In this document: piece by piece, positions 31,401 through 59,520 of the stretch
Numbering within the stretch: the first letter of the stretch is position 1
Layout of the letters: each line of letters begins with the position of its first letter
NCBI GenBank assembly: GCA_030062745.1
Contig: CP099839.1
Coordinates: 33,106,793 to 33,170,792 of the forward strand
DNA: 64,000 nt
Direction: 5' to 3'
From: Capitulum mitella
Lineage: Eukaryota; Arthropoda; Thecostraca; Pollicipedomorpha; Pollicipedidae
Made by a program: the position numbers and the translations under genes
The notes under the pieces: model-generated
Told to the model about the DNA's origin: nothing
Seen by the model: the letters and a program-made list of their open reading frames with translations, nothing else
Database searches by the model: none

Positions 31401-34400
31401 TTCAGAGGGGCACGGCCTTTCCGAGACGACGAAATGATCCCCCCTCAGATCAACGAGATCATTTTGATTTGATTTTTTATATTGATTGATTGATTTTATT
31501 TTATTTTGGTTTTTGGTTTTTATTTTAAAATGACATGGTGGTAACCTGCATTCCACCGGAATCCTGGTACGTCTGGCCATGATGCACTGCAGGGCATTAC
31601 GGTCGGGCAAGCGTCAACTCCACCTGATAACTTGTCACCTGCGACAGTGGCGCCACGGACGGTAGCTGTGAAACTGTAGGACTTCTAGACTCGCTTCCCA
31701 CACTAACTTGACTGGGATATTCCGCCACCTTTCATTAGCTGTGGGGGAGGGGCGTTTACGACGACGTATTGTTGTGTCAAAGGTTCAACACCGCGCCAAA
31801 GGCACGGTATAGGATAATAGAGGCCGCAGGCCGATAAAAGGGCGCAGTCGGACTTGGTTCTGTCCAACAAATAGGTTAGGTCGGGCGAAGCGCGGTATAG
31901 GGTTATGTTTTAATAGAGGCCGTGTGCCGGGTTTGTTTCGCACTACGAAAGGTTCGTACCTTTCGTAAGGGGGAAGGTTCGTAAGGGAAAAGGTTCTTAA
32001 CCAAACGTTCCTTAACTTAGTGTTTGTACCGGAAAAGAGACGGACCTAAAATGGCGACCTAGCGCAACGTAACCTAACCTAATCTAACCTAACCTAACCA
32101 AACCAAACCTAATCTAACCTAACCTAACGTAACCTAACGTAACCTAACGTAACCTAAAGTAGCCTAACTGTTTTGTTGGACCGAGCCAAGCCCAATCGCA
32201 CCCTTTAACGGCCTGCGGCCTCTAATATCCTATACCGCGCCCTCGGCTCAAGCCAGGAAACAACCTTTCCCTATACAAATCTTGTTGGATACGAACCTTT
32301 TCAGATACGAACTTTGTTTACGAACCTTTCACTGCGAACCTTTTCCCCCTGCGAACCTTTGACATATGAACCTTGGTCCGGTTATCCTCCCAGGATCGCA
32401 CGAGAGAACGCATGATCGCCATGTTCCCTTAGCCCACCAAATGCGAGAGTTTAATGCATTAGCGAGCGGACCGTTCCAAGTTTTCACCAGTCGCCGCCCG
32501 AGGCGCCACCGTCGCGGGTGACGGGCGATTAGAGCGAGTTCATGCCTTGCAGGTCGTTAGACTGCACGGTGGCCAGCGCGACGCCTTTGACAAGTTGCCG
32601 CTGCCGCCGCGTCTGGTCGACCAGGTGATCCGGCGCGTCCACAACGTCCCATCTGTGCTTCATGCTGATGATCGTACACACAAAAACACAGACCGTGTAT
32701 CGGGTCCGGGTAGAAAGCGCGTCGGATGGGTACCAGACATGAAGCACCAGAGCGGGCGGTTCTGAGCCGTGTACCACCTGGCCATGCATCATTTGACGCA
32801 CACCTTTTCTGTGAAGCCGCTAGCGTCGCTGGTGACCACTCTTCACGCACTGGTAGAGTAGTTTCGTCGGGGCTCATGCTGCATTATACAGCGGCCGGCA
32901 GATCAGAAAAACCAGTCATACCGGACATGCTTGCATGCACGCGCATGCTTCCACAGACAGTGTGCACTGGCCCCGCGACGCGCTTCTCTATGGAGCAGCA
33001 AAAGGTAGTCGGTCCAGCGGTCTGGCCACCAAGCTGGCGGATCAGAGCACCATATGACAGCTCGGCTTGATGGCGAAGCACACAACCCTGCTCAGTGGCC
33101 GACTGCCAATCTTTTCGAACTTAACCAATCATTCACGCCGTAACCCCACAATTTGGTTGATACCATTATCGCCAATAAACACCACTTTTCCCAAATCAAC
33201 GCTACGTTCTCTCATAAACGCATAAAACTTGTGTGCCACTGTCTCCCCCATATGGCTACCATCACAGTTCAAATGACATATATGAACATCGCTTGGGTGC
33301 ATGTTCACAGACATGTTATGCACGGTACCCTTTACATATTTTTTTTAGATAGCCTTTGATACAATCTCCTTTTTCGTTTCATCATCGCAGCCATCACAAA
33401 ACACAGCACAGCACTATGAGGCGTTCGCACTCACCCCTTTGACTTTCTCTTTCCTGGTCTTATTAAGGACCCTATGCACTTCGGTTTTTGTTTTGGCCTT
33501 CCTCCCTACCACGTCCGAGAATGAGGAAAGTATTTTTGAAGCCTTTCAAGCACCAACGTAGTGGCATCCTGAGCTTTTGCCACGGACGCTAAGTAGGTAG
33601 GTAGGTAGGTGCTTTTTAGTAAGAAGGTAGGGCATGACGCAGTCTGGGACATTCCCATCACTTTCACAGCTGTCTGACAGCTCATGTGACGGAACAGTGG
33701 CGTTTGCCCGGGCTGTGGAGATGCTGGCGGTGGTGGCTGCAGCGGTGCTAGAGGCCGTGGCCGCGGCGGCAGCGGAGGCATTAATGCTGGTGGTGGTGGC
33801 ATCAACGGTGGCGGCACTGACGGCAGTAGTGATGTTGGCGCTGGCGGTGGCGGCGCCGGCACCGGCGCCGGCGACCGCAGTGGGTGTAGCGGCAGCGTCG
33901 ACCGTGACAAAAGTGGAGACAGTGGTCTCTGAGCTCTTTGGTCTATTGGTGTCGCTGCTCCCGCTTCTTCCAGCGTACTGTTGTAGCCTGATCTACCGTC
34001 CCGACGTACAGGCACCGGCCCACTCTATGGTCCTTGAGAGATGTCCGTCATAGCGGTGTTCAGGCTGCGTAGTCGGTTTTGAGATGCCAGAAGCGACGTC
34101 ATGAGTGTCAATCCGAGTGGCGTCACGCTGCCCACGACATTTCCTGTCTCCTTGACCTTCCATAGTTTGGTGACCGCTTCTCGCACCTTATCGCTTCTTC
34201 TCGTCGGAATCCATGCCCGGCTCCAAATTTCCGTGACCTCATCAATCACTTGTCAATAGACTTTTTACAAGGAGAAATACTTTCCATCTGCACCTAGTTC
34301 TTGCATTTTTTTTCTACTCTCAGCGTCACGATTCGCCCCAGGACCTGACCGCTAGCTGGAAGGAAATTCTAGGGGAAATTGCATTGTTTTATGCCAAACA

Positions 34401-39502: not shown

Positions 39503-39726
39503 CCAGTCGTGCGGCAAGCCTCGTAGGGGTCGGACGCAGCTCGCTCCGCTCTTAGGTCGATAGGGTTGACACAGACACTTAGTCTTTAGTCCACACTTCG
39601 ACTTTGTGCTTCCTGATAGTTTTTTTTTCTACACTTCCACGTTTATTTCTGCGATCCACACCCTTCTAAGGTAGGCCTACTCTCCACTTCCAGTTTTCTT
39701 TTCCGAGCTGTTCCCGGACTTCTCTC
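39503..39726 (+). promoter_or_regulatory. 5' UTR / internal promoter region of LINE copy 1
   Basis: About 220 bp starting CCAGTCGTGCGGC, shared with copy 2 (59299-59520). Because both copies begin at the same place, this is the true 5' end. Full-length LINEs of this kind carry their promoter here. No TATA box is visible. Confidence 0.55.
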
Positions 39727-41401
39727 ATGGGCAAGCGAGGTAAACGAAAGAAAAACGACACTGACTCTATAGGCTCGAACTCGGACTCTGATGCCAGCCC
39801 CTCTGCAGACATCGACATTGGTGTTTGTAGAGGTGTAACGAACAGGACGATTCACAAACAAAGCCGACCATGGCTTGAACCCGGAACAGATCTCGACACC
39901 CGAACACACTTCGTCTGACACGATATCGGATACTGACCTTCGCACAAACTCTGACACTGCTCAGGTCCGCGCCGTTTTCACACACACTGACTCTTCACGT
40001 TCTCGTGACCTTGACCTGCCCCTGACTGCGCCCGAGCCCCACGGCCCTGGCAGCGTGCCAGGACCGGCCCGGCCGGAAGGGTCGAAGGGCTTATCCGGAC
40101 TCGCACAAGCAACCAGGGCAAATGACAGGTGCACTGTGGCAGAGGATACCGTCGGGGCAACACGCGGTCAGATGCACGGGACGCCATGCCCGGTTCGAGA
40201 GCCCTACCTGGACCCACTTGGGTCATACGTAGTCGTGAAACCTACCGACTCGAATACAAACTTTCAGAAAATCAACGTCTGGGCACCTCCTAAACAGATA
40301 GAAGCAATCTGCGGCCCAAACATTCGGCTCCACATTCAAGCACCTCGCGATGGCTCTCTCATCATCAAAACCAACAACCGCCATCAAACCAAACTGCTTC
40401 TCAAACAGACAACTTTCTGTACTAAGGCAGTGACGGTCACCCTTCACCCGACTAGAAACTCGTGCAAGGGAACTGTGTTCGCACCTGAACTCCGCTTCAT
40501 GTCTGAAGCGGAGATTCAACTCGAACTGAGGGACGAGCTGGTCAGCCACGTCCGTCGACTAACCACCTTCAGGGACGGACAGCGTCAGGACACCAGTCTT
40601 CTTGTCCTCACGTTCGAAACTCCCAGTCTCCCTCCCAAGCTCCACGCCGGCTACCTCTGCTTCGAAGTGCGCCCATTTATCCCCAACCCTCTGCGCTGTT
40701 TCACCTGCCAGAGATTTGGTCATGGCTCCCGGAACTGCAGACAAGCTGCTCGTTGCGCTCGCTGCGGTGATGCTGCGCATGAGGGTTCTCTGTGCTCCAA
40801 ACCTCCTAAATGCGTCTCTTGCGAGTCTTCCGACCACACCACAAATTCGAAGAACTGTCCCGTCTGGCTGACCGCAAAGCGCATTTGTGAGCTTAAGGCA
40901 AAAATGAACATTTCATATCCCGAAGCACGACGTCAGGTACAATCACAGAAAAACCAACCTCAAAAGACCTATGCTCAAGTCACATCAAAAAGCACCACCT
41001 CTTCGTCTTCCCAGACTGATAACATACCACAGCTTCCTCCTCTTCAGCTCTTAAAGCCTCTTTGTCACGAACCTCGTTCTGTCCGTTCTCAGTCCAATGA
41101 GAAGCACACAGTGACTGAACCACAAAAGGCAGGTGCAAAACATCCTATGAAAGGGGCATCGACAACTGCCCCCGCAACTCCTGGGCAGTCTGTCCCCAAG
41201 AGAGCACCACAGCCTACACTCCGGTCATATTCACCCGCACACCACCCTGGTGCTAAGGCTCCACCGTGTACTCCGCATAAGGACAACCAACCTCCATCGC
41301 CCAGACCCGGTCCCAGTCGACCCCGGGGCCGCTCCTCCAGCCATGGTAGGACTCAACAGGGATCACAGGCCCTTTCAGGGACTCAAAGCATCTTTAGCTA
41401 A
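39727..41401 (+). pseudogene. LINE copy 1 ORF1 (gag-like zinc-knuckle protein), frameshifted near its start
   Basis: The ATG at 39727 begins MGKRGKRKKNDTDS, but after about 43 codons the frame is lost. Compared with copy 2, two bases are missing around 39860-39870. The remaining 500 or so codons are open in the other frame to 41401. The protein is a nucleic-acid chaperone that coats the LINE RNA. It has a charged, disordered N-terminus, a central RRM-like segment, and three zinc knuckles: CFTCQRFGHGSRNC, CARCGDAAHEGSLC and CVSCESSDHTTNSKNC. A Pro/Ser/Thr-rich tail follows. A shorter product might start at an internal Met (39875 is the first in frame). Confidence 0.85.
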
Positions 41402-41468
41402 ATCACACTCAATGCCACTACTTTCCCAGAGCCAAGGTTTCTGCCTTAGGCTCTACACAACATTATTA

Positions 41469-44400
41469 ATGACTATTCTTCAGTGGAACTGTCGTGGTTT
41501 AATTAGCAAATGGGCCGAAATCAAACCTTTTTTGATGTTTTGTTCCTCTAATATTCTATGTTTACAGGAGACACATTTTCTCACAGACGACCCGTACGAC
41601 TTCAGTCTACTCGGATACTCTATGTTCACAAAATGTGACGACGTTCACAGACGCCATGGCGGAGTTGCCATATACATTTCTAACACAATTCCTCACCGAC
41701 AGCTCCTGGTTCAAACAGACCTACAAGCGGTCGCCTGCACGGCTCTCATTTCAAACCGCCGTATCAGTGTATGTTCACTATATCTCCCTCCAGGCGTACC
41801 CATTTCTCTTCAAGATCTACAAAACTTCACTGATCAGCTCCCACCGCCATTCATACCATGTTCGGATGCCAACAGCAAACATTTTTTATGGGGTTCTGAC
41901 CGATGCGACAGAGGAGGACTAGTCTTCGAACAACTCATTAGAATCAACGCTTTACATGTCTTGAACAACGGCTCCCCGACAAGGCTGGATGAATTCTCTG
42001 GACTCGTATCACACATTGATGTTTCATTATGCTCTAGTGGATTAGCTCCTTTCCTTTCATGGGAAACTGACAACGACCATCTTGCTAGTGACCACTTTCC
42101 GATAACAATTAAATACGTAGACGGTTCAGCTCAAACAACACATTCCCAATACGATGTTCCAGCAGGGTGGAGCATTAAAAAAGCTGATTGGGACTCCTTC
42201 CGAGCCCAGTGTCACATCGCCACCGACTTCACAGATGTTGACTCTGCCTGCATAAAAGTCACGCAATCGATTATTTCCGCTGCGCGAGCCCACATCCCGA
42301 CAACCAAGCCACAAGGGCAATACAGATGTCCTTGGTGGACTGACGCCTGTAAACAGGCAATAGCAGCGCGCAAAAGAGCATTAAATCGTTTCCGTCGAAA
42401 CAGAGAAAACCCAAGCCTTCTCCTTGACTACAAAAAGGAAAAAGCCAAAGCTAGACGAACTATTCGAGCAGCTAAGCGATCCAGTTGGCTACAGCTCCTG
42501 AATAAATTCTCCACCTCCACACCCGCGCACACATTATGGGATACTGTTCGCAGTTTCATACACAAAACAAGCTTCCAGCGTCCTCTTCCGGTTCTCAAAA
42601 TCCAAGGCATCCAGGTAGATAACCCAAAAGACGTGGCCAATCACCTCGGTCAATTTTACTTCCAACTGTCGTCCTCCACAAACTTTGACCCAGGTTTTCG
42701 TATCCAAGACAGCCTTATGACACACAACATGCCGGACTTCGACCTCGATTCCAACAACTCCGAGCCATACAACAATCCTTTCTCTTTGCACGAACTGAAC
42801 TCATCCATAAATTCATCCGGTTCAACATCGGTTGGTCCGGATCTCATTCACTATGAATTTCTCAAGCACCTCGACGACACCCAAAGAAGCAGACTCCTTG
42901 CTTTCTTCAATTATGTGTGGACACAGCACAGAATCCCAACAACTTGGAAGCACGCTTTTGTGGTTCCTCTTTTAAAACCAGGAAAACCTACAGACGCACC
43001 TGAATCCTACCGACCAATTCAACTTACTTCTTGTTTATGTAAAATCATGGAAAGAATGGTGAACTCCAGGATGTTGTGGCACGCCGAAAAATTCCAACTT
43101 TTGTCGAAATACCAATGTGCTTTTCGCCCTGGGCGAGCCACAGTTGACCATGTACTTCGCCTTGAATCTGACATACGCGGCGGCTTCTTCGCAAGAAAGT
43201 TTACCGTGGCAATTTTCCTCGACGTTAAGTACGCCTATAATATGGTGTCCCGAGCAGGTCTTCTTACAAAACTTCATCACATAGGTTTCCGTGGACACTT
43301 CATGCATTTTATAAATTCTTATCTCAGCGGCCGTACACTACAAGTTAAAAGCGGAACCCTTTCGGACTCCTTCCCCTTGGACAATGGAGTGGTCCAGGGC
43401 GGGGTCATTTCTCCTCTGCTTTTTCTTTTCATGATTAATGATCTCTTCGACGATTGTCCAACTGGTGTGTCTCACGCACTGTATGCAGATGACTGTGCTT
43501 TGTGGGCCACTGGAAAAAACCTGCAGTTGATTTTTCAGACTCTCCAACTTGCTCTTTCCCGAATTGAAGACTGGGCCAACAAATGGGGTTTCTCATTCTC
43601 CGCACCAAAATCGAAAGCAATCATTTTCAAAAAATACATGAGACGTGAGCGATGCAGACCTCCGTTAGATTTCCTTCTCAATGGGCAGCCCATCGAATTC
43701 GTGGAAAACGTCAAATTTCTAGGAGTACACCTGGACACCAAGTTAAATTTCACCACTCAGATACAATATCTTAAGGCAAGAGCGATGAAAAGAATTCCCT
43801 TCCTCAAATGCATAGCTGGTTCGGGCCTCGGGGCGGATAGAAAAACTATTCTTCGTTTGTACTTCGTACTGGTCCGACCAATTCTGGAATATGGCGCACA
43901 AGTCTTCGACCACTCGTCAAGGGCCCTTCAGTCTTTAGAGACGATACAAAATGTTTGTCTGAGAATCGCACTGGGCGCTCTGCGAACCTCACCGGTTGAC
44001 AGTCTCAGAGTTGAGGCTAACGTGCCACCACTGTCGCTGAGGAGGTGGGAGATGACCACACGGTATTTCCTACGGATTCAAAGCGACCGGGAACACCCTT
44101 GCTACCATCTGAAACACTTTATGGAATACCTCAGACACATGAACGAACAAAGAATTTATCGACTCTGTGGTTTTCCTCTGTCACTACGTTTTCACAAAGT
44201 CTGCAGAGATACAGGCTTCTTGGTACCGACCAACGTGAGCAAACCTCACAGTAGCCACCCTCCTTGGACCACCTCGCAGATCAGTTTCCAAACGCTCACC
44301 TCACAAAACAAGAAAACCCTAGACCATGATAAGGTCCAGGAGACGTTCTTGCAGTTTGTTGAAAATCATTCGGACTACCACCTCTTTTTTACCGATGGCT

Positions 44401-45175
44401 CCAAAGACCACGACACAGTAGTGTGCGCTTTTGTATATAGACAAATCACCGGGCGACACAGATTACCGGACAAAATTTCCGTTTTCACCGCGGAACATAG
44501 CGCAATTCATCAAAGCCTGAAATTTATTCAGGCTCAAGGCATCCGGAAATCGGTTATCTGTTCTGACTCACTCTCTGCTCTCCAGGCCCTACAGTCATTG
44601 CGCAAACCTCCCCCCTCGCTGTCCTTATATTCGACTTGTATTGCGACATCACAGAGAAGGGCATGACAGTTAAATTTTTATGGATTCCTAGTCACCAAGG
44701 CATACGCGGTAACGAAAGAGCAGATATGCGAGCAAAGGAAGCCTTACGAATAACCACAGTCACCCCGGTCCCAGTTGGTCACAGAGAATTTTTTCCGGAA
44801 ATAAGGAAACTGATATATCAGTACTTTGATGGATACTGGCGAACTTCGGTTGCTGATTGGGATACCAGCTACCGCCAAAACCGCCGGGAAGAAATTGTTT
44901 TGGCACGCTTACGACTGGGACACACAAGGCTAACTCATTCACACATAATAAATCACTCAGACAGACCTCTATGTGTCCCATGTCACTCATACCTTTCCGT
45001 ATGGCACATACTCTTTGACTGCCAGATGTACCAGAGAGAAAGAGAAAAACTACGACTGACGTGCCGAAGCTTAAACCTACCATTCTCATTACACGGTATT
45101 CCAGGAAACAACGAGCCGGTTACAAAAGCCCTGATGTGTTTTCTCAAACAAATCCACTTGTTCTCTCACCTCTGA
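41469..45175 (+). pseudogene. LINE copy 1 ORF2 (APE endonuclease, RT, RNase H), one late frameshift
   Basis: The likely start is the ATG at 41469 (MTILQWNCRG), since endonuclease homology begins there; the open frame extends further up over ORF1. Domains by residue: APE endonuclease about 1-225 (LQETHF, SDHFPI); reverse transcriptase about 490-720 (FVVPLLKPGKP, FLDVKYAY, NGVVQGGVISPLL, and the YADD active site at 671); RNase H about 970-1090 (FFTDGSKD, AEHSAIH, CSDSLSAL, SHQGIRGNERAD); and a C-terminal C-C-H-C finger (CVPC...HILFDC). The frame shifts by one base near a run of six C at 44609-44614, inside RNase H. Everything else is open over about 1,236 codons. A homopolymer sequencing error could explain the break. 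Confidence 0.88.
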
Positions 45176-50245: not shown

Positions 50246-50646
50246 TTTGGTGTCCTACAAAGGGCAGGTAGCGTCGAAATGAGTTTTCTGTGTGGCGGCG
50301 GCTTGTTGACAAAAAAGCGATAAATTGGCGCTACGATAACCGGCATTCCCGAAGCTCAGACAATACCAGTTCTCCACAGCAACTCAGTCCATTCGGTAAC
50401 ATCTTGTTGAGAAGATTCCCCAACGCCCTGAACAGCACATCCTCCTAAAAGTTTAGGACCTATTCGTTAGAAGAGAGGAAACGAACTTTAGGACGAATAC
50501 GTGCTAAATGTTGCCAACTTTACAACGTATTCGTCTTAAATATAACGCTATGGGAACACTGGATCAATGCTGCATAAAAATAACGCCATGGGAAACGGGT
50601 GGAGATGACTGGAAACCGGAAATACGTGTGAATAGTGGAGAAAAAA
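50246..50646. other. Interval between the two inverted-repeat elements
   Basis: About 400 bp of unique-looking sequence, with no gene recognised. TTAGGACGAATACG/CGTATTCGTCTTAA words at 50490-50540 form a small inverted repeat. Confidence 0.4.
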
Positions 50647-51400
50647 GGGTATTCTAGGCGCAGGCTTCTCCCTTCTCATAGCTCCAGAAATCCGCGTAGT
50701 TGGCAAGCCATATTGGCACCAAAAGATGCGCAATGAAAAAACTGCCCGATCCAAGGCGTTTTGTGCCTTGTAAACATTACAACTTCGCCAAAATAATCGC
50801 CTGAAGCGATCGAGATCCCCACCGCCTCCAAATCTCGAAACACGGAGCATCCTTACGAGACAGATCAACGTCAGCCACCAAGGATCGACGGTTCAGGCCT
50901 CGTGAAATGTGACGTCACCGAAAGATAAACTAAACGCAGCAGTCTCGAAGCTCAAAATAGGTTAACACTGGCAATGACACGGAACAGGAAGGTGGACTGG
51001 GACCGAACAAGGATAGGCATGAGTGCCTGGAAGGGGCAAGGGCGGATCCAGGATTTCGACAGGGGGAAATGGGGGCTCCCCTCCCGGCCTTGGTCCCCAT
51101 TTTTTGCTCTTCAGATATGAAAAAAACGTTGATCTACTAGGGTCCTGGCCGAAATATTTGATATAATTCTGAGCTTTTTTGGTATAAAGTAAGCGACAGA
51201 ATCCAAAAGCGTCGCCTCATTTGAAAAAGCTGCGTTTTGTTTCCCTACAAAGTGGCCGAAATATGACAACAGGGATGGGACTTTAAGTGGGCGCATCCCT
51301 CCTTCTACCTGAAATATCGTTTCTGTTGCCCAGGAGCCCCTCTGCCCCGTCGTAACTTACTGAGACATTTTTGTTAGCCTTTTGGTGGAATATTGATCTC
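50647..51400 (+). repeat. Left unique terminal arm of the foldback-like element
   Basis: About 750 bp pairing with 58540-59219. It includes CAAGGGCGGATCCAGG at 51037-51052, a sequence resembling the ends of common GGCGGATCCAGG-type DNA transposons. The arm may therefore itself contain an inner element boundary. Confidence 0.75.
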
Positions 51401-52930
51401 TGGGGAACATGCTGCCGCCTCAGGGACCTCTGGTAGATACAAAAGACCTTTTGACGGTTTTAGGGCCCCTGCGCAGTGTCATGGGCCCCCTGAACATCTC
51501 CGGTAGTCTCCATGGCTGCATGAGGGGTCTCCCTCTGTTACATCGGGTATATCGAGCAGTTTTAAGTCTTTCAAGCCGTATCAGGGGCCTTTGTTCGAGC
51601 TTCAGGGGCCTCACTGGCAGTCTCAGGGGATCTTTGCAGCACCAGAAGCCCGTCTAACACACTCGAGGGCAGAGACGCAGCCAGCCTAAAATTTCGGAGG
51701 GTCCTCGTCCAGCGTCGGGCCACCTCACTTCATCTGGGCCCCCTGGACAAAAATATTTAAACATAAGGTTTCACAAGAGGCTCGCAGAGGAATACAGCCG
51801 ACCCGACATTTTGGGAGTTGCATGGCCGATGGTGAGCCCGTATCTTATGAATGCGGTGAATTAATATGCGTCCCCAGAATAAAACAGCCCGTGAAAATTT
51901 CACGACATTAGACGCTTGCCGTTCCTAAAAAGCTGGTTGCCTACAACCAGCTAGGTTGTCTCTGATTGTCGGTGATTGCGCCAAAACAATTTTTTTACCG
52001 GGGGCCTCCACAGCTCTCAGGGTGCTCCTCCGCAGGACGTCAGGGGGCTCCTCTACACGCCAGGGGCCTCTCCACAGGCCGTAAACGAATCCCTCTGCAG
52101 GCCGGTAGGGGCCTACAGACGGCGGCAAGGGCCCAGGCATGTCAGAAAGGGCTCCTTCATGCCGACAGGGGACCAACTACAGGCAATCAGAAGGCCCTTT
52201 CCGATCGGCAGGGGGCCCTTGCAAGCTGGCAGGGCCCCGTAGAACTGCAGAGGGTCCCTCCACAGGCTAGCAGGGACCCGAAGGCCTGGAAGGCGCTCAC
52301 AGGCCGCTAGGGAGCCTTGCAGACTGTAAGGCGGTCCCTACAGGCCGGTAGGGGCCCAATACGCCGGCAGAAGACCCCCTACAGGCCGGCAGGTGACCCG
52401 TGCAGGCGGGCAGGGCCCCCTGTAGGTCAGCAGGGAGCCATTGCAACCAGCAGAAGCCCTACAGACTGGCTAGGGGCCCCATAGGCCGGCAGGGGGCCCT
52501 GCAGGTCGGCAGGGTGTCCCTACAGGCTGACAGGGGGCCCGCACAGGCTGGCAGGGATACTACAGACCGACAGGGGGTCCCCTGCAGGCCAGTAGGGGCC
52601 CTTCTATGGGCTTGGACCTGTTTAAACGGTCTCATGAACCATTTGTCGTGCTGAGATCCCTCTTGCGTTCCCAGGGACTCGGGGCTCGTATGCCATTCAA
52701 GGGGCCCCTCTGCCGTCATACAGACTCAGTCCTCATCTTGGCTGTCTCAGGAGCTCTGGAATCTGTAACGGCCTTGTAAGCCCCTTGAAAGGGCCCGGGC
52801 CCCTTCTGGCGGTCTCAGGGGAAATCTACCGTGTTGGGGCCCTGTTATGGTCTCAAGGACCCTTTGGGAGTTTCAGGGGCCCTTCCATGCATCTCAGGGG
52901 TCGTCTAGCCCTCCCAGAGGCCCCCTGACT
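51400..52930 (+). repeat. Left degenerate GGGGCCC-rich tandem arrays
   Basis: Two flavours occur. From about 52000 to 52610 a 20-25 bp unit like ACAGGCCGGCAGGGGGCCC repeats more than twenty times. On both sides (51400-51660 and 52620-52930) are longer units of the type CAGGGGCCTCTGGCAGTCT. Open frames here are by-products of the repeat. Confidence 0.75.
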
Positions 52931-54800
52931 GAATCAAAACGTTTTTTTACCTTTTTATCAAGAACTTTTCCACAGACCCCGTAAAACTCAAACTGGGCCC
53001 CTTCGAGACCCATTTGAGTCTGAGACGGACCCCTCCGGGGCCAGCCCGATAGGCGCTCCTTCTCGGATGGTTATTGAGGCTTAGGGGCGCACCGACTTCA
53101 AGGTCTTTTCTGGATGTTCTTTCGCTCTTGAGTTATAAGAGCATAAAAATGGCAAATGCGAGTAATTAGAGCTATTGGGTGCATAGAGTTGGCCGAAAGG
53201 CAAGCTGAAAAGCAGTAGTGTATATTATTCGATACGAGCTGTTATCCTTCAGTGCTAGATCAACAACGCACGACTGGCCCCTAAACCCAGGAAGCTGCGG
53301 CTGCGCGTGTAGAGCGTGCAAGTCTAGAATGTCAGCGGGGGCTTCCCGTCACACGAGCAGTCCGTAGCAGACAAACGGCAGACTCAGAGTCATTAAGAAC
53401 CATGTGCTGCCGAGATTGGTCTCATGGTTACTTCCGCTTGAAGTCGGAGTTGACTCCGGAATGAGTCGACCTCCGGCTTGTTAAAGTGGAATAGGCTCCT
53501 TCGAAAATTTGCGTGGGATGGAGTCGGAGTTGGGTCGACGGTATTGGTTACAAACATGGGCGAGTCAAATGAAAGAAAAATGCGAGTAACAAAACAAATA
53601 CCCCTATTCTGATATCTCTTTTGGGTACGTTCAGCATGTGGAACACTTCACGTTTGCCTCTTCGTTACCCAAATGCATGTCCAATGAAGGTCATTGTAGA
53701 TCACAGAGTGGTTCATATACCTACCCGTTGCCACTGGAATCGACTCCATTTGAATCGTTTCGGAAACCAGGCGACATCGCCTTGAGTCGGAGCCGGGATC
53801 AAGTGAAAATTTGGTTAAGCTGCTCAGAGTCAGAGCAGGAATCAAACAAATGCGTTGTGAATCCGGAGCGGTCTGGCCCGAACGCCAACCCTGACTTGGG
53901 CTCCAGGACTGGGGTCTCGGATTCCTGGAATGCAAAGGTGGACTAGTGTCTCGAACTTGGACTCAGGCGATGGATCTTGGACTCTGATCTCGGTCTCGGA
54001 CTTGACCTTGACCTCGGACCTCTATCTTGATCCTGAACTCAGATCTCAGACTAGCATTTATTTATACTGTGGCCTATACCTACGTTAAATTACTGACGTT
54101 AAGGCGGACCAAAAAGTGTTCATGAGCAATTACGTGTCTCCTGTGAGGAAGACTACTAAATATGTAATTTGCATTTTAAAGAAAGGCGGGGGTCCCGATG
54201 CTTTTTCCATCATCGCTGCAGTACTTTTTTGACTTTAGTTCCATTTATCATGGACTGTACATTTGTGTACATACAATGCATCGTTATTGTCGTTTGGTTC
54301 GAAATGATGCCTTTTTGTCAGAACTATCCGACAAACAGTATTTTGCAACGAGCGAGGCCACAGGCCAAGTGAGTTGAGCGAGCGGAGCCGCAGGTCGCAG
54401 ACCACATGCCAGCAATCGCTCGGAATTTTCAACTCTGACGCGCTCGGGCTATAGCCTGCCGGCCGGCTGCCATCGGGATCTGAAGGGAATTTCGAACGTG
54501 AAGTTCATGATCGACGTGAAGTTCGTGATCAGAGATCACGATCAAGTTCTGTCCACCGCCGAGGTCAATGCAGACCTCAGAGTCGTGGAGTCCTTTTGCA
54601 ATCGTAAATCTCGTCCACCTCTTAATACACAAACTACGCTTTGGTTCATCATTCAGATTTACGGGAGAGGGGCTGATGATACAGGGATTTTGTTCGTTCC
54701 TTTCCACCTATGTGCAATGGCTGAACTTGCTTCTGAAGGGTCAGATATACTTAACAGACCCTAGATTGCGTATAATGGCACTGTTATAAACCTTTGGGTC
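52931..54800. other. Centre of the foldback-like element, left half
   Basis: No gene was recognised. From 53430 to 54060 the sequence is enriched in degenerate GAGTCGGAGTTGACTCC and GTCTCGGACTTGGACTC words, an imperfect simple repeat. The rest shows no structure that could be named. Confidence 0.5.
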
Positions 54801-54806
54801 TTTCTT

Positions 54807-54966
54807 CGTATGTGTTCGTTGACAGCTGACCCGCCTAATTATGGAGGGTCGGAATAAACCCGTATGTGTTCGTTGACAGCTGACCCGCCTAATTATGGAG
54901 GGTCGGAATAAACCCGTATGTGTTCGTTGACAGCTGACCCGCCTAATTATGGAGGGTCGGAATAAA
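54807..54966 (+). repeat. 54-bp tandem repeat, three essentially identical copies
   Basis: The unit CGTATGTGTTCGTTGACAGC... begins at 54807, 54861 and 54915, with no difference seen between copies except at the last edge. Such homogeneity suggests recent expansion. Confidence 0.9.
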
Positions 54967-55207
54967 GAAAGGACCCTAGATCGCGTCCATTTACTTTGGT
55001 GTAACTGATGTATTTTTGTATTTTCTTGGTTCATACTGCTGTCTGGAGTTCAGAGGCTTATTTTTGGCTGGCGAGTGCTTTAGTAGTTTCATTTTCGTTT
55101 TTTGATTCCTACCATTCCTGAAGATGGCTTGGTGCCGAAATGTCGAGTCCATGCTAATATGGATATCTTTTAAACCCAAGTTTCTTCCGTCATAAAGAAG
55201 GTTGTTC

Positions 55208-55452
55208 CGGGTCGGATCCAGCGGCGCCGTCTGAGGGGGTAGGGGCGAAACAGAATTTCCTAGGTGTGGAAGGTAGGTCAACGAGCGGGAAGGGGAAAGA
55301 CTCCGACCGTGGGTTTTCGGAGTTTCCAGCGACTGCAAACTCTGGTTGCACAGTAAAATATTTTTTAGGGGGGAGGGGCAAATGCCAATTTGTCCCCTTC
55401 CTTATTCGCAGTTTGGGGGCATGGCCGAGATTCCCCCCTGGATCCGCCACTG
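55208..55452. mobile_element. Possible short GGCGGATCCAGG-ended MITE
   Basis: The right end reads CCCCCTGGATCCGCCACTG, the reverse of CAGTGGCGGATCCAGGGGG, a terminal sequence type seen in hAT-like and related elements. The left end (GGTCGGATCCAGCGG) matches only in part. It sits in the centre of the foldback-like element. Confidence 0.35.
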
Positions 55453-55499
55453 GGCTGTTATGGCGCTTCTCCATCACGTTTGATTTGGTGTAATCACCT

Positions 55500-56340
55500 C
55501 AGCAGCTCACATCCTTAATGCATTGGCAAACGTAGAAGCGCGACGGAGAACAAACATGCATACATACGGAGTCACCACTTGGTCATGGCTAGACCTCCTG
55601 TCATACCACGACTCTTAGCCATTCAAGATGCCCAGTTTGACAGATCTTCATTCAGTCATGACAGGAGTCTTCCGTCTTATCTGGGCTCTCCTTCATTTTA
55701 TATCTTCAATTTATTGGGTCCCCTCTCGACCATAACAAAGGCCTCCCTCTAGTCGTGACAGGGACATTCATTGGTCAGCGTAGGGGCCGAACGGCTTACC
55801 ACAGTTCCCAGTTATGTACGATGCACATTTCCCATGCTACTGGGGTCTCCTCTCGATCCTGATGGGCTTCTCCTGTTGTTCCGTGGCTTGCAACCATTGC
55901 AGTTTGCTAAATGACTGAGCCTTTCTCTCGATCGCGACAAGGACCGCCTCTTATTCTTGAACGTGGCATGGGTGTAACCACCGGGGAGTGAGCTGGGGAC
56001 ATGTCCCCTCTAATTTTGGCAAAATGATTTTTCGCCCCTTCCAAATTTGGTCGGAAAGCGAGCATTTTTTGCACTTTCCCGTTGAAAAACAAGATGTTGG
56101 GACAGTGTTCCCGAACAAAATGATTTCCCCTCCCTAATATCGTGGACATCATCCTTGCACCCGTGGAAAGGGCCTCTTGTCGTAACACTGTTCGCCGCCA
56201 TCTATTACCCATGAAATGCTGGAACTCCCTCTCATTCATAACAGACAATTCTTGCAGTCAGCGACAATTAACGACAATTAGCGACTCAGGCTGGATGACT
56301 CAAGCGCGGATGCAGGGGGGAGGGGCATGGGGGCGATGGC
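55500..56340. other. Degenerate CTCGACCATGACAGGG-type minisatellite region
   Basis: Loose repeats of phrases such as CATGACAGGAGTCTTCC, TCGTGACAGGGACATTC and CTCTCGATCCTGATGGGC, spaced about 50 bp apart. It resembles the array at 13.5 kb. A GCGGATGCAGGGGGGAGGGG stretch at 56299 borders the right array. No gene was seen. Confidence 0.4.
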
Positions 56341-58540
56341 CACCCCCTGAGGCTTAAGAATAGGCCCCATGAGAGGCCCCGAAGGGGCCCTCTCGCGGGG
56401 CCCGGAAGGGGCTCCTTTCAAAATCAAACGAGGCCCCGAAGAAGCCCATATGAGCTTTGCGGGATTTGTAAAAACGTGACGGGTTCTTGATACAATCCGG
56501 GTGCTTCTGGGAGGATTAGATGACCCCTGAGACGCGTAAAAGGGCCAGAAAAAACAATCAGGGGGTCCTAGGGACCACAGGAGACAGACCGGAACCTCGG
56601 AAATATATGAAGGGGGCCCACCGCCACCGAGGTTATAGAAAATTACTTTTATAAGAACCGAAGCTATCGTTAAAATGTTTTAAGAACGGCAGACAAGAGA
56701 AGACAGAAGATGAAATATATAGATCCAAGCATATAGAGGGGCCCCCATAGGCCTGAAGGAGCCCCTGTCGGCCTGTAGGGGGGCCCTGCCTGCCAATAGA
56801 GGCACCCTGCCGGCTTGTAGGGGTCCCCTGCCGGTCTGTAGGGACCCCTTGCTGGCCTGTAGGGCCCTTGCCAGCCTATGGAGGCCCCCTGCCAGCTTCT
56901 GGGGGCCCGGTCGGCCTGTAGGGGGATCCTGCATGCCTGTAGGGTCCCCTGCCAGCCTGTAGGACCTCCTGTTCGCCTGAAAGGACCCCCTGCTGGCTAA
57001 CAAGGGGCCCTTAGGGTGCTGCCGGCCTGCAGGGGCCACCGCCGTCTTGTAGGAGCCCCTTGTCACCTGCCGGCCTGTAAGAGCCTCTACGACCCATGGG
57101 GCCCCTGGCAACCTTCGGAGGGCCCCTCCTTTCTAGGGGATCCACATGAGGTAAGGGGCCCACCTCTGGGTGAGGACCCCGCAATTTGTGCCTGGCTGCG
57201 TCCCTGGAAGGGTCCCTGAAGCCACGACAGGGCAGATTGCCCCTGATTCTGCCGGAATGGCCACAGGGCCCTTGAGACGGCCAAGATGAGGAATGAGTCC
57301 TTAGGACAGCACAGGGGACCCTGGAGTGCCATAGCGGCCCTGAGTGGGTTTCACGGACCTGTATGAAAAGATTAAGGCTCCTGATGCCATTAGAAGGCCC
57401 CCGTGAGGGTTTATGAGCCCCTGGGACGGTAAGATGGCCCCTTCGATGGATGCAAAGGCCCCTGAAGCTCTGTAAGGGTCCCCGAGGCCGCAAGAGGGGT
57501 CCCAACACGACAGGGCCCATGAGACCGTGAAAAGTGTCAGAGAGGCCCATGAGACGGCAAGAAATTGGAGGGTACTTAGCACGACATAAGGAGACTCTGA
57601 CCAGCCAGAGGGACCCTCTGAACAGGGATTCATCATTAACCTCAACCTCGAGAGGGGCTTGAATGGGGTATACTGTTTTTTTTTTAACCTGGAGGGGTTC
57701 TTGATGCAGTCAGGAAGATTCGGAAGGTCAGGTGGGTCCTGAGACGGCAGGATAGGCCCCTACACGGCAGATGGCCCCTGAGATCGCTAAAGAGGTCGGA
57801 GAGCCCATGCGAGGCAAAGACGATAAGAGGACTTCTTAGGCGGTCTATGGGGTCTTGAACGGCTAAAACCCCGAGTGTGCTAGGCGGGCTCTTGGCATAG
57901 AAATGGTCCGCCTGAGACTGCGAATGAGGCCACGACTGCCAGATATACCCCATGTAACAGAGGGGGACCCGATACTGCCATGGATACTACCGGAGGTGTC
58001 CAGAGGGCCCATGACACTGCATAGGGGCTCGGAAATCGCCGAAAGATCTTTCGTAACTGCCAGAGGGCCCATGAGAGCGCAAAAATGGTCCCAGAGACGA
58101 CAAGGAGAGCGCCTTGGACAACAGGAGGTCCACTGAGACTGCTAGAGAGGGGCCTTTGGGGACCTTTAAAACCGCTCACTAGCAGTCTCAAGCAGGGCCC
58201 ACTGAGATGACCAGTAAGGCCCACGAAACTACTAAGCCTCGAGACGTCCAGACAGTTCCTGAAACGGCCAAAGGACCTAAAGCATTGCCAGAGGCGCCTC
58301 TGTCACGGCAGAGAGAGACTTACAGAGGGCCCTTGTTACTGCCTGAGGGACTTCCTAGACGGCAACTTTCCCCAGGGACGACAGGAGGAAACCTGAGATG
58401 GTTGAAGTGTCCTTGAGCTACCAGATGGGTCCTGCCCGAAGTGTCTGTAAAAGTAACTTGAGACCACTAAAAGGCCCTGACACGGCCAAAACCAAAACCA
58501 CCAAGAAGTTGGCAAAATAGCCTCCAGAGGTTACGAGGGG
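56340..58540 (-). repeat. Right degenerate GGGGCCC-rich tandem arrays (inverted)
   Basis: The same two unit types in reverse complement: CCCTGCCGGCCTGTAGGGG units at 56735-57080 and GGGCCCATGAGACxGCxAG-type units from 57080 outward. The order (short unit nearer the centre, long unit nearer the arm) mirrors the left side. Confidence 0.75.
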
Positions 58541-59219
58541 GCAGAGGGGCTCCTGGATAACAGAAACGACATTTCAAGTAGAAGGAGGGACGCACCCGCC
58601 TAAAATCCCATCGCTGTTGTCATATTTCGGTCACTTTGTAGGGGAACAAAACGCAACACTTTTTCAAATGAGTTCACGTGCTTGGATTTTGCCGCTTACT
58701 TTACTCAAGGAAAATAGCAGAATTATATCAGATATTTCAGCCAGGACCCTAGCAGATCAACTTTTTTATATCAGAAGAACAAAAAAATGGGGACCAAGGC
58801 TGGGAGGGGAGCCCCCATTTCCCCCCTGTCGAAATCCTGGATCCGCCCTTGCCCCTTCCAGATATTCATGCCTGTCCTTGTTTGGTCCCAGTCCACGTTC
58901 CATTGCCATCGTTAACCTATTTCGAGTTTCGAGACTGCTGCGATTAGTTAATTTTTCGGTGACGTCATATTTCACGAGGCCTTCTGAACCGTAGATCCTT
59001 GGTGGCTGACGTTGATCTGTCTCGTAAAGATGCTCCGTGCTTCGAAATCGTAGTTGTGGAGGTGGTGGGTATCTCGACCGCTTCAGACGATTATTTTGGC
59101 GAAATTGTAATGTTTACAAGGCACAAAACGCCTTGGATCGGGAATAGTGGCAATATGGCTTGGCAACTACGCGGATTTCTGGAGTTATGAGAAGTGGGAA
59201 GCCTGCGCCCAGAATACCC
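58540..59219 (-). repeat. Right unique terminal arm of the foldback-like element
   Basis: Reverse complement of the left arm with scattered substitutions and small indels (an extra-short spacer near 59140, for example). CCTGGATCCGCCCTTG at 58836-58851 mirrors the left motif. Confidence 0.75.
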
Positions 59220-59520
59220 AGGTTACTAGTTATTAGGGTGCGTTTTGCGACTACCAGATGTACTTGCACCAGTCCTTCACAGCAACACCACTAAATCACA
59301 GTCGTGCGGCAGTCCTCATAGGGGTAGGACGTAGCTCGCTCCGCTCTTAGGTCGATAGGGTCGACACAGACACTTCGTCTTTTGTCCACACTTCGACTTT
59401 GCGCTTCCTGATAGTTTTTTTTCTACACTTCCACGGTTATTTCTGCGATCCACACACTTTTAAGGTAGGCCTGCTCTCCACTTCCAGTTTTCTTTTCCGA
59501 GCTGTTCCCTGACTTCTGTC

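Follow-up and report, generated by a model that had tools for sequence, protein, structure and literature searches.

A foldback-like, probably non-autonomous transposon family with 8-bp target-site duplications in the barnacle Capitulum mitella

Among transposable elements with long inverted repeats, the TU elements of sea urchin resemble by description the subject of this report: they are foldback elements with short tandem units inside long inverted repeats, and they are flanked by 8-bp target-site duplications. Galileo, another foldback-like element, is known to drive chromosomal inversions. Here we analyse a stretch of 64,000 nucleotides of the Capitulum mitella genome (contig CP099839.1, positions 33,106,793 to 33,170,792; the whole stretch is called the window below), which contains an 8.6-kb element with long terminal inverted repeats (TIRs), and we compare this element with its relatives elsewhere in the genome. 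We conclude, with a probability of about 0.92, that the family is a non-autonomous foldback-like TIR transposon, which would be moved in trans by a transposase encoded elsewhere.

Three described systems come close to it. Tetris and DAIBAM of Drosophila virilis (PMC4079207) have in common with the barnacle family the foldback architecture, tandem repeats in the TIRs, a non-coding middle, modular copies in rearranged order and a short non-autonomous relative with the same TIR ends, and the published account likewise reports no autonomous copy; going by that description, Tetris makes duplications of 8-10 bp and has units of about 220 bp, whereas those of the barnacle family are 8 bp and about 20 bp. 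Galileo, a P superfamily element of Drosophila (PMC3573991), also has long, internally repetitive TIRs, many copies lacking a transposase, and TIR expansion. Again by description, its P transposase is known and its TIRs measure about 0.3-1.2 kb (PMC3573991); the barnacle family has no linked transposase, and its arms, with the arrays counted in, reach 2.3-2.9 kb. The Mutator/foldback element Tm1 of Meloidogyne (PMC3169594) shares composite TIRs that contain short tandem units, which in Tm1 are about 14 bp long, as well as asymmetric ends and non-coding members, but its duplications are most often 9 bp and some of its members carry a Phantom-like transposase, whereas we found 8-bp duplications and no transposase. 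No description of the present family, or of any barnacle foldback element, was found in the open-access literature searched (repeat databases lay outside this search), and we regard the family as genuine and as probably a new representative of a structural kind that is well known. In kind the family is not surprising; it documents, in a barnacle, foldback elements with 8-bp duplications whose large non-autonomous members multiplied as whole elements, their left and right arms already differing.

Dispersed copies and their target-site duplications

In the register set by the family's target duplications, the window element spans positions 50648-59218 (8571 bp). Its outer arms are inverted copies of each other: in a self-BLAST comparison, 50647-51388 matched 59219-58498 over 757 aligned columns with 82.8% identity (E reported as 0). 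The left outer TIR (50648-51388, plus strand), about 740 bp long, begins with the tip GGTATTCTAGGCGCAGGC, and the right one (58498-59218, minus strand) measures about 720 bp. A preliminary description of this DNA had taken the two ends and about 700 bp inside them for inverted copies, as is indeed the case; it placed the element correctly, though its ends, 50647 and 59219, are each one base too far out.

We searched the genome (16 contigs, 477 Mb) for other copies. The left arm as query gave 43 matches from the best 40 of 2636 candidates scored; of these, 24 combine into 12 inverted pairs, among them that of the window, which span 4.7-12.6 kb and are spread over nine contigs. On contig C3, two weak matches make up one more pair, of about 1 kb. 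The 24-base tip (GGTATTCTAGGCGCAGGC...) occurs 245 times with up to three mismatches, 125 times forward and 120 times in reverse (100 of these places were listed by position), while the reversed control sequence gave 0 occurrences. Copies lying tip to tip within 30 bp were found, with the exact pattern, as two pairs genome-wide.

Altogether 26 elements were read: 15 of the window type, 7 shorter ones (L041-L047), 3 more (L051-L053) and 1 of a second subfamily (L054). Twelve of the window-type elements were read with both ends, and C1c, C3b and C10c over their first 9.5 kb. Except for deletions and nested inserts, the remaining 14 long copies align collinearly to the window copy (in the three read in part, over the sequence read, and in C3b only over its first 3.0 kb). 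Their identity to the window element is 88-94% for the centre and 85-92% for the outer arms. The shorter members, of 0.7-6.6 kb, consist of the same modules in rearranged order.

Aligning the outer borders, which the preliminary description had proposed as a way to find the target duplication, revealed one. With the element taken as GGTATTC...GAATACC, both tips were readable in 18 elements, and the flanking octamers of 9 of these are identical, in register, at 7 or 8 positions (6 exactly). The length of the target duplication is 8 bp, because none of 306 mismatched flank pairs used as control met the same score, and flank windows of 6, 7, 9 and 10 bp gave 0-1 of the 18 elements (0/18 for 9 bp). 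Eight of the 26 elements are outside this count, five for an unaligned right tip (C6a, C10b, C2a, C13a and C12a) and three as partial sequences (C1c, C3b and C10c).

The family thus shows what defines the foldback structural class: long inverted arms at both ends, made partly of tandem subrepeats; dispersed copies with target duplications (in 9/18, the window copy itself having none); and a non-coding middle, with deletions and nested inserts that differ from copy to copy. The inverted arm pairs elsewhere and the 8-bp duplications support the initial reading of the window element as a foldback transposon.

To follow the history of the copies we compared 12 right and 15 left arms. Their tree is nearly star-like. 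The 12 right arms cluster (support 0.785) and 13 of the 15 left arms stand apart from them; the other two, C2a_L and C10b_L, fall between the right-arm cluster and these 13, a position that may be due to arms having exchanged sequence. The terminal branches have lengths of about 0.03-0.07, and internal branches are short except at the left/right split (0.022 and 0.033). The mean Kimura two-parameter distance is 0.094 between left arms (105 pairs) and 0.099 between right arms (66 pairs), and between left and right arms it is 0.14 within one element (12 pairs) and 0.151 between elements (168 pairs). The near-star tree, in which most left arms are separate from the right arms, therefore shows that one ancestral 8.6-kb element, whose left and right arms were already distinct, was amplified in a burst and is now present at many places.

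Two elements, L042 (C6:5737395) and L053 (C16:2807376), have left flanks that match over about 20 bases with one difference (GTCACTGCCGT[TC]GAATGTGT) and a common structure; judging from these sequences, they probably represent a segmental duplication and not two insertions.

Junctions of the window copy and repeat X

The window copy sits within a repeat, here called X; about 215 bp of this longer repeat form its left flank (50433-50646, plus strand, recognized by genome matches). X gave 56 genome matches from the best 40 of 169 candidates scored, 42 of them at least 127 bp long, the window's included. The left junction reads as a clean insertion into X, because four other X copies (L050, L018, L060 and L061) continue uninterrupted through the insertion point, (G/C)AAAAAAG^AARATTYGGTCC. 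On the right side we found neither the duplicated octamer nor the remainder of X. The left octamer GAAAAAAG (50640-50647), the expected duplication site, is identical at only 2 of 8 positions to the right octamer CAGGTTAC (59219-59226), and the right flank (59220-59298) is unique, the query 59215-59300 matching only itself in the genome. Since both the octamer and the rest of X are missing there, the right junction has been rearranged, either through a deletion or because copies recombined with each other. The copy would have inserted into X and later had its right junction replaced by one of these two events, the recombination being with another copy; the rearranged flank is a candidate breakpoint.

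Two other accounts of the window copy draw on the same junctions. It might be a chimera produced by ectopic recombination between two foldback copies and mark a rearrangement breakpoint, as in Galileo inversions: the left flank is the first part of X without its continuation on the right, the octamers disagree, and the right flank is single in the genome. These facts would follow equally from a plain deletion, or from the right flank having been lost later, and no reciprocal partner was sought, so that we consider a chimera quite possible, at somewhat below even odds. The preliminary description had also held that arms never found together elsewhere would suggest a local inverted segmental duplication or an assembly artefact in place of a mobile element. 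The absence of a target duplication at the window copy and its unique right flank would suit such an origin, but the 12 inverted pairs on nine contigs, the 245 tips, the 8-bp duplications in 9/18 elements and the four X copies uninterrupted at the left insertion point leave it a probability close to nil; for the family as a whole, paired copies and target duplications refute it.

Repeat X itself also occurs in inverted pairs about 1-11 kb apart (C15:7082059/7090617, C9:894954/905555 and C3:2078759/2079884), which suggests an arm of another long-TIR element. Copies of X lie 0.6 kb from a Merlin match (C3:14216324) and 1.6 kb from a Mutator-like (MULE) match (C1:33601541). At L018 (C9:23654-27384) a copy of X stands between two foldback arms whose tip sides face it, and the aligned tip there marks another insertion into X, at a distance of 76 bp from the site of the window copy.

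Search for a transposase and candidate movers

No transposase had been visible in the preliminary description, which made mobility dependent on another element. We saw none of the family's own in the window element or in the 25 others, the frames of copies other than the window's being judged by eye, and this fits such dependence; a copy with a transposase, which that description hoped to find, did not turn up among the elements examined. The longest open frame of the window element (232 aa) lies in array DNA, and the middle domain has no open frame above 136 aa. Among 10 frames of the window element (9 from the middle domain, 1 from the right arm) no Pfam family scored above its cut-off; I-TevI_DNA-bd, the strongest of those below threshold (E 5e-4; 20.4 bits where 27 were required; no matched stretch), was taken as chance, like the others.

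We also considered whether the extra DNA of longer copies hides a transposase, and rejected this, as the inserts looked at resemble nested unrelated elements. They include units of 1.0-1.2 kb flanked by TTAA and, in C3b and C1c, pieces that look like Gypsy and Harbinger (named by eye, without profile search). A further insert, of 2.8 kb, lies in C7a and stands apart from these. Transposase-like pieces within family copies sit, by eye, in what look like nested elements. One of these, a hAT-like element (named by eye) about 6.5-9.5 kb into C6b (C6:17299191-17312781), has open frames of 418 and 369 aa, TIRs of about 280 bp, a tip of its own (TAGGGTGGCACTT) and its own 8-bp duplication (CCTTGCAC). 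A second 8.57-kb subfamily (tip GGTATTCATGGCGC, represented by L054) was rejected as the autonomous form: it has the same modules, no transposase was seen in it, and the 1.2 kb unique to it consist of a nested unit flanked by TTAA.

Duplications of 8 bp are compatible with the P, Merlin and hAT superfamilies and, loosely, with Mutator. The genome gave 109 transposase matches: 12 P, 36 Merlin, 6 MULE, 1 KDZ and 54 hAT (the last from the best 150 of 211 candidates). These were set against 166 listed tip or arm-end positions of the family, which cover a part of its tips. None of the 109 lies inside a known family element, and the single match within 12 kb of a listed position is a hAT, 5.7 kb outside element C10b. 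Seven transposase loci were read (3 Merlin, 2 P and 2 MULE); none had a convincing tip (best 14/18), and their family DNA is limited to short matches, of 44-46 bp in L056 and of 103 bp at 78% in L057.

Which superfamily might supply the mover can be judged only tentatively. P elements make duplications of 7-8 bp, which the family fits, and the genome holds 12 P-type domain matches. An origin within the P superfamily, with an autonomous partner not yet linked, would also suit the precedent of Galileo, whose long internally repetitive TIRs go with a P transposase (PMC3573991); none of the 12 matches, however, lies within 12 kb of the listed positions, and the two P loci read have no convincing tip (14/18 at best) and just two family stretches of 44-46 bp, so that this origin, though a serious candidate, has the odds against it. 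Membership in the Mutator superfamily, to which several foldback elements belong, is rather unlikely. Mutator elements typically make duplications of 9 bp. Tm1 joins foldback TIRs to a Phantom-like transposase, but its most frequent duplication length, 9 bp (PMC3169594), was found in none of our 18 elements, the clear cases being 8 bp. L057, one of the two MULE loci read out of six, does match the family member L042 over the 103 bp mentioned; no tip at the two loci exceeds 12/18, and none of the only six MULE matches in the genome lies within 100 kb of a listed position. For a Merlin (IS1595-like) transposase speak the 8-9-bp duplications and tips starting with GG that are typical of Merlin, together with 36 genome matches, several in uninterrupted frames of about 300 aa; given that none of these is within 12 kb of the listed positions (the nearest at 94 kb) and that the 3 of 36 loci read (L048-L050) have no tip above 12/18 and no family DNA, we think Merlin quite improbable. 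More improbable still would be a transposase lineage outside the five screened superfamilies that makes 8-bp duplications, reads the GGTATTC tips together with the ~20-bp GGGGCCC-type units, and amplifies 8.6-kb non-coding elements with 2-3-kb arms in a burst.

Several observations weigh against a non-autonomous foldback-like transposon moved in trans. No transposase with matching tips was found, and 1/109 matches falls within 12 kb of the 166 positions. Half of the elements tested (9/18) have no in-register duplication: none was found in the window copy, C6b, C3a, L042, L046, L053 and L054 (L053 and L054 examined in register only), and in C7a (7/8, offset 1) and L041 (8/8, offset 7) it is out of register, offsets being uncontrolled. 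We nevertheless favour this interpretation: a transposase encoded elsewhere, now or formerly, would have recognized the tips, and perhaps the subterminal repeats too, and would have moved the element by cut and paste. The tip and the 8-bp signature together offer a practical means of searching for the autonomous partner.

Arrays, middle domain and neighbouring elements

Each arm of the window element is asymmetric and about 2.3-2.9 kb long; an outer TIR of about 0.73 kb bears the conserved tip, and ~20-bp tandem units come after it. These arrays contain two kinds of degenerate, GC-rich units in mirrored arrangement. Within the element, unit T1 (GGYCTCAGGGGCCCYT) matches 19 sites on the plus strand, of which the left half contains 14, and 28 on the minus strand, of which the right half contains 22; for T2 (CTACAGGCCGGCAGGGGGCCC) the counts are 24 (18 left) and 20 (13 right). 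Both patterns were taken from this very element, and because of the palindromic GGGGCCC core some sites score on both strands, which are therefore incompletely distinguished. Both units are scarce in the remainder of the 64-kb window (9, 5, 1 and 1 sites), and five block-shuffled versions of the element gave 0-2 sites with the plus pattern.

On the left (plus strand), self-BLAST, periodicity and pattern counts delimit an outer array (51397-51760) whose degenerate T1 units measure about 20 bp and multiples, with 61 as the strongest lag; periodicity and pattern counts an array of ~20-21-bp T2 units (51980-52620); and self-BLAST and periodicity an inner T1-type array (52620-52945). On the right (minus strand) lie an inverted T2 array (56735-57070; self-BLAST and pattern counts) and an inverted T1-type array (57070-58497; also periodicity), although periodicity in 57640-58500 hardly exceeds that of the centre (0.32 versus 0.30). 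Self-BLAST links the two sides through further inverted blocks: 51397-51560/58097-57935 (79.5%, E 1e-32), 52378-52619/56963-56721 (71.8%, E 1e-24) and 52677-52758/57345-57264 (78%, E 3e-13). The mirror order is only approximate, because the arrays are degenerate (64-80% matches), differ in length (about 1.5 kb on the left against 2.1 kb on the right) and have inner blocks whose matches depart from strict collinearity. Of the mirror-image arrays first described, inverted arrays of two types on both sides are thus retained, and a strict order is not. The former division into long-unit and short-unit arrays has to be replaced by two sequence types of similar length, as the period, where clear, is about 20-21 bp for T1 and T2 alike.

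The middle domain (53000-56300, about 3.3 kb) has, by its open frames and Pfam, no recognizable protein-coding capacity. It includes three perfect 54-bp tandem units (54807-54966, plus strand), where the alignments of other copies break. These units are perfect though element copies are otherwise about 10% diverged, and their number seems to vary among copies.

Rfam and tRNA scans of the window gave no match. The window also holds two copies of a non-long-terminal-repeat retrotransposon (LINE), at 39504-44663 and from about 59299 to at least 63445, whose identity is 93% in a comparison of their first 422 aligned bases; the first encodes RVT_1, endonuclease and RVT_3 domains in one frame. At two of the three Merlin-like loci read, the transposase gene is near telomere-like (AACCT)n arrays (L048:1818-2340 and L049:1782-1845, in the C5:16446966 and C15:6391127 regions), and the window itself has an interstitial (AACCT)20 array at 32066-32168.

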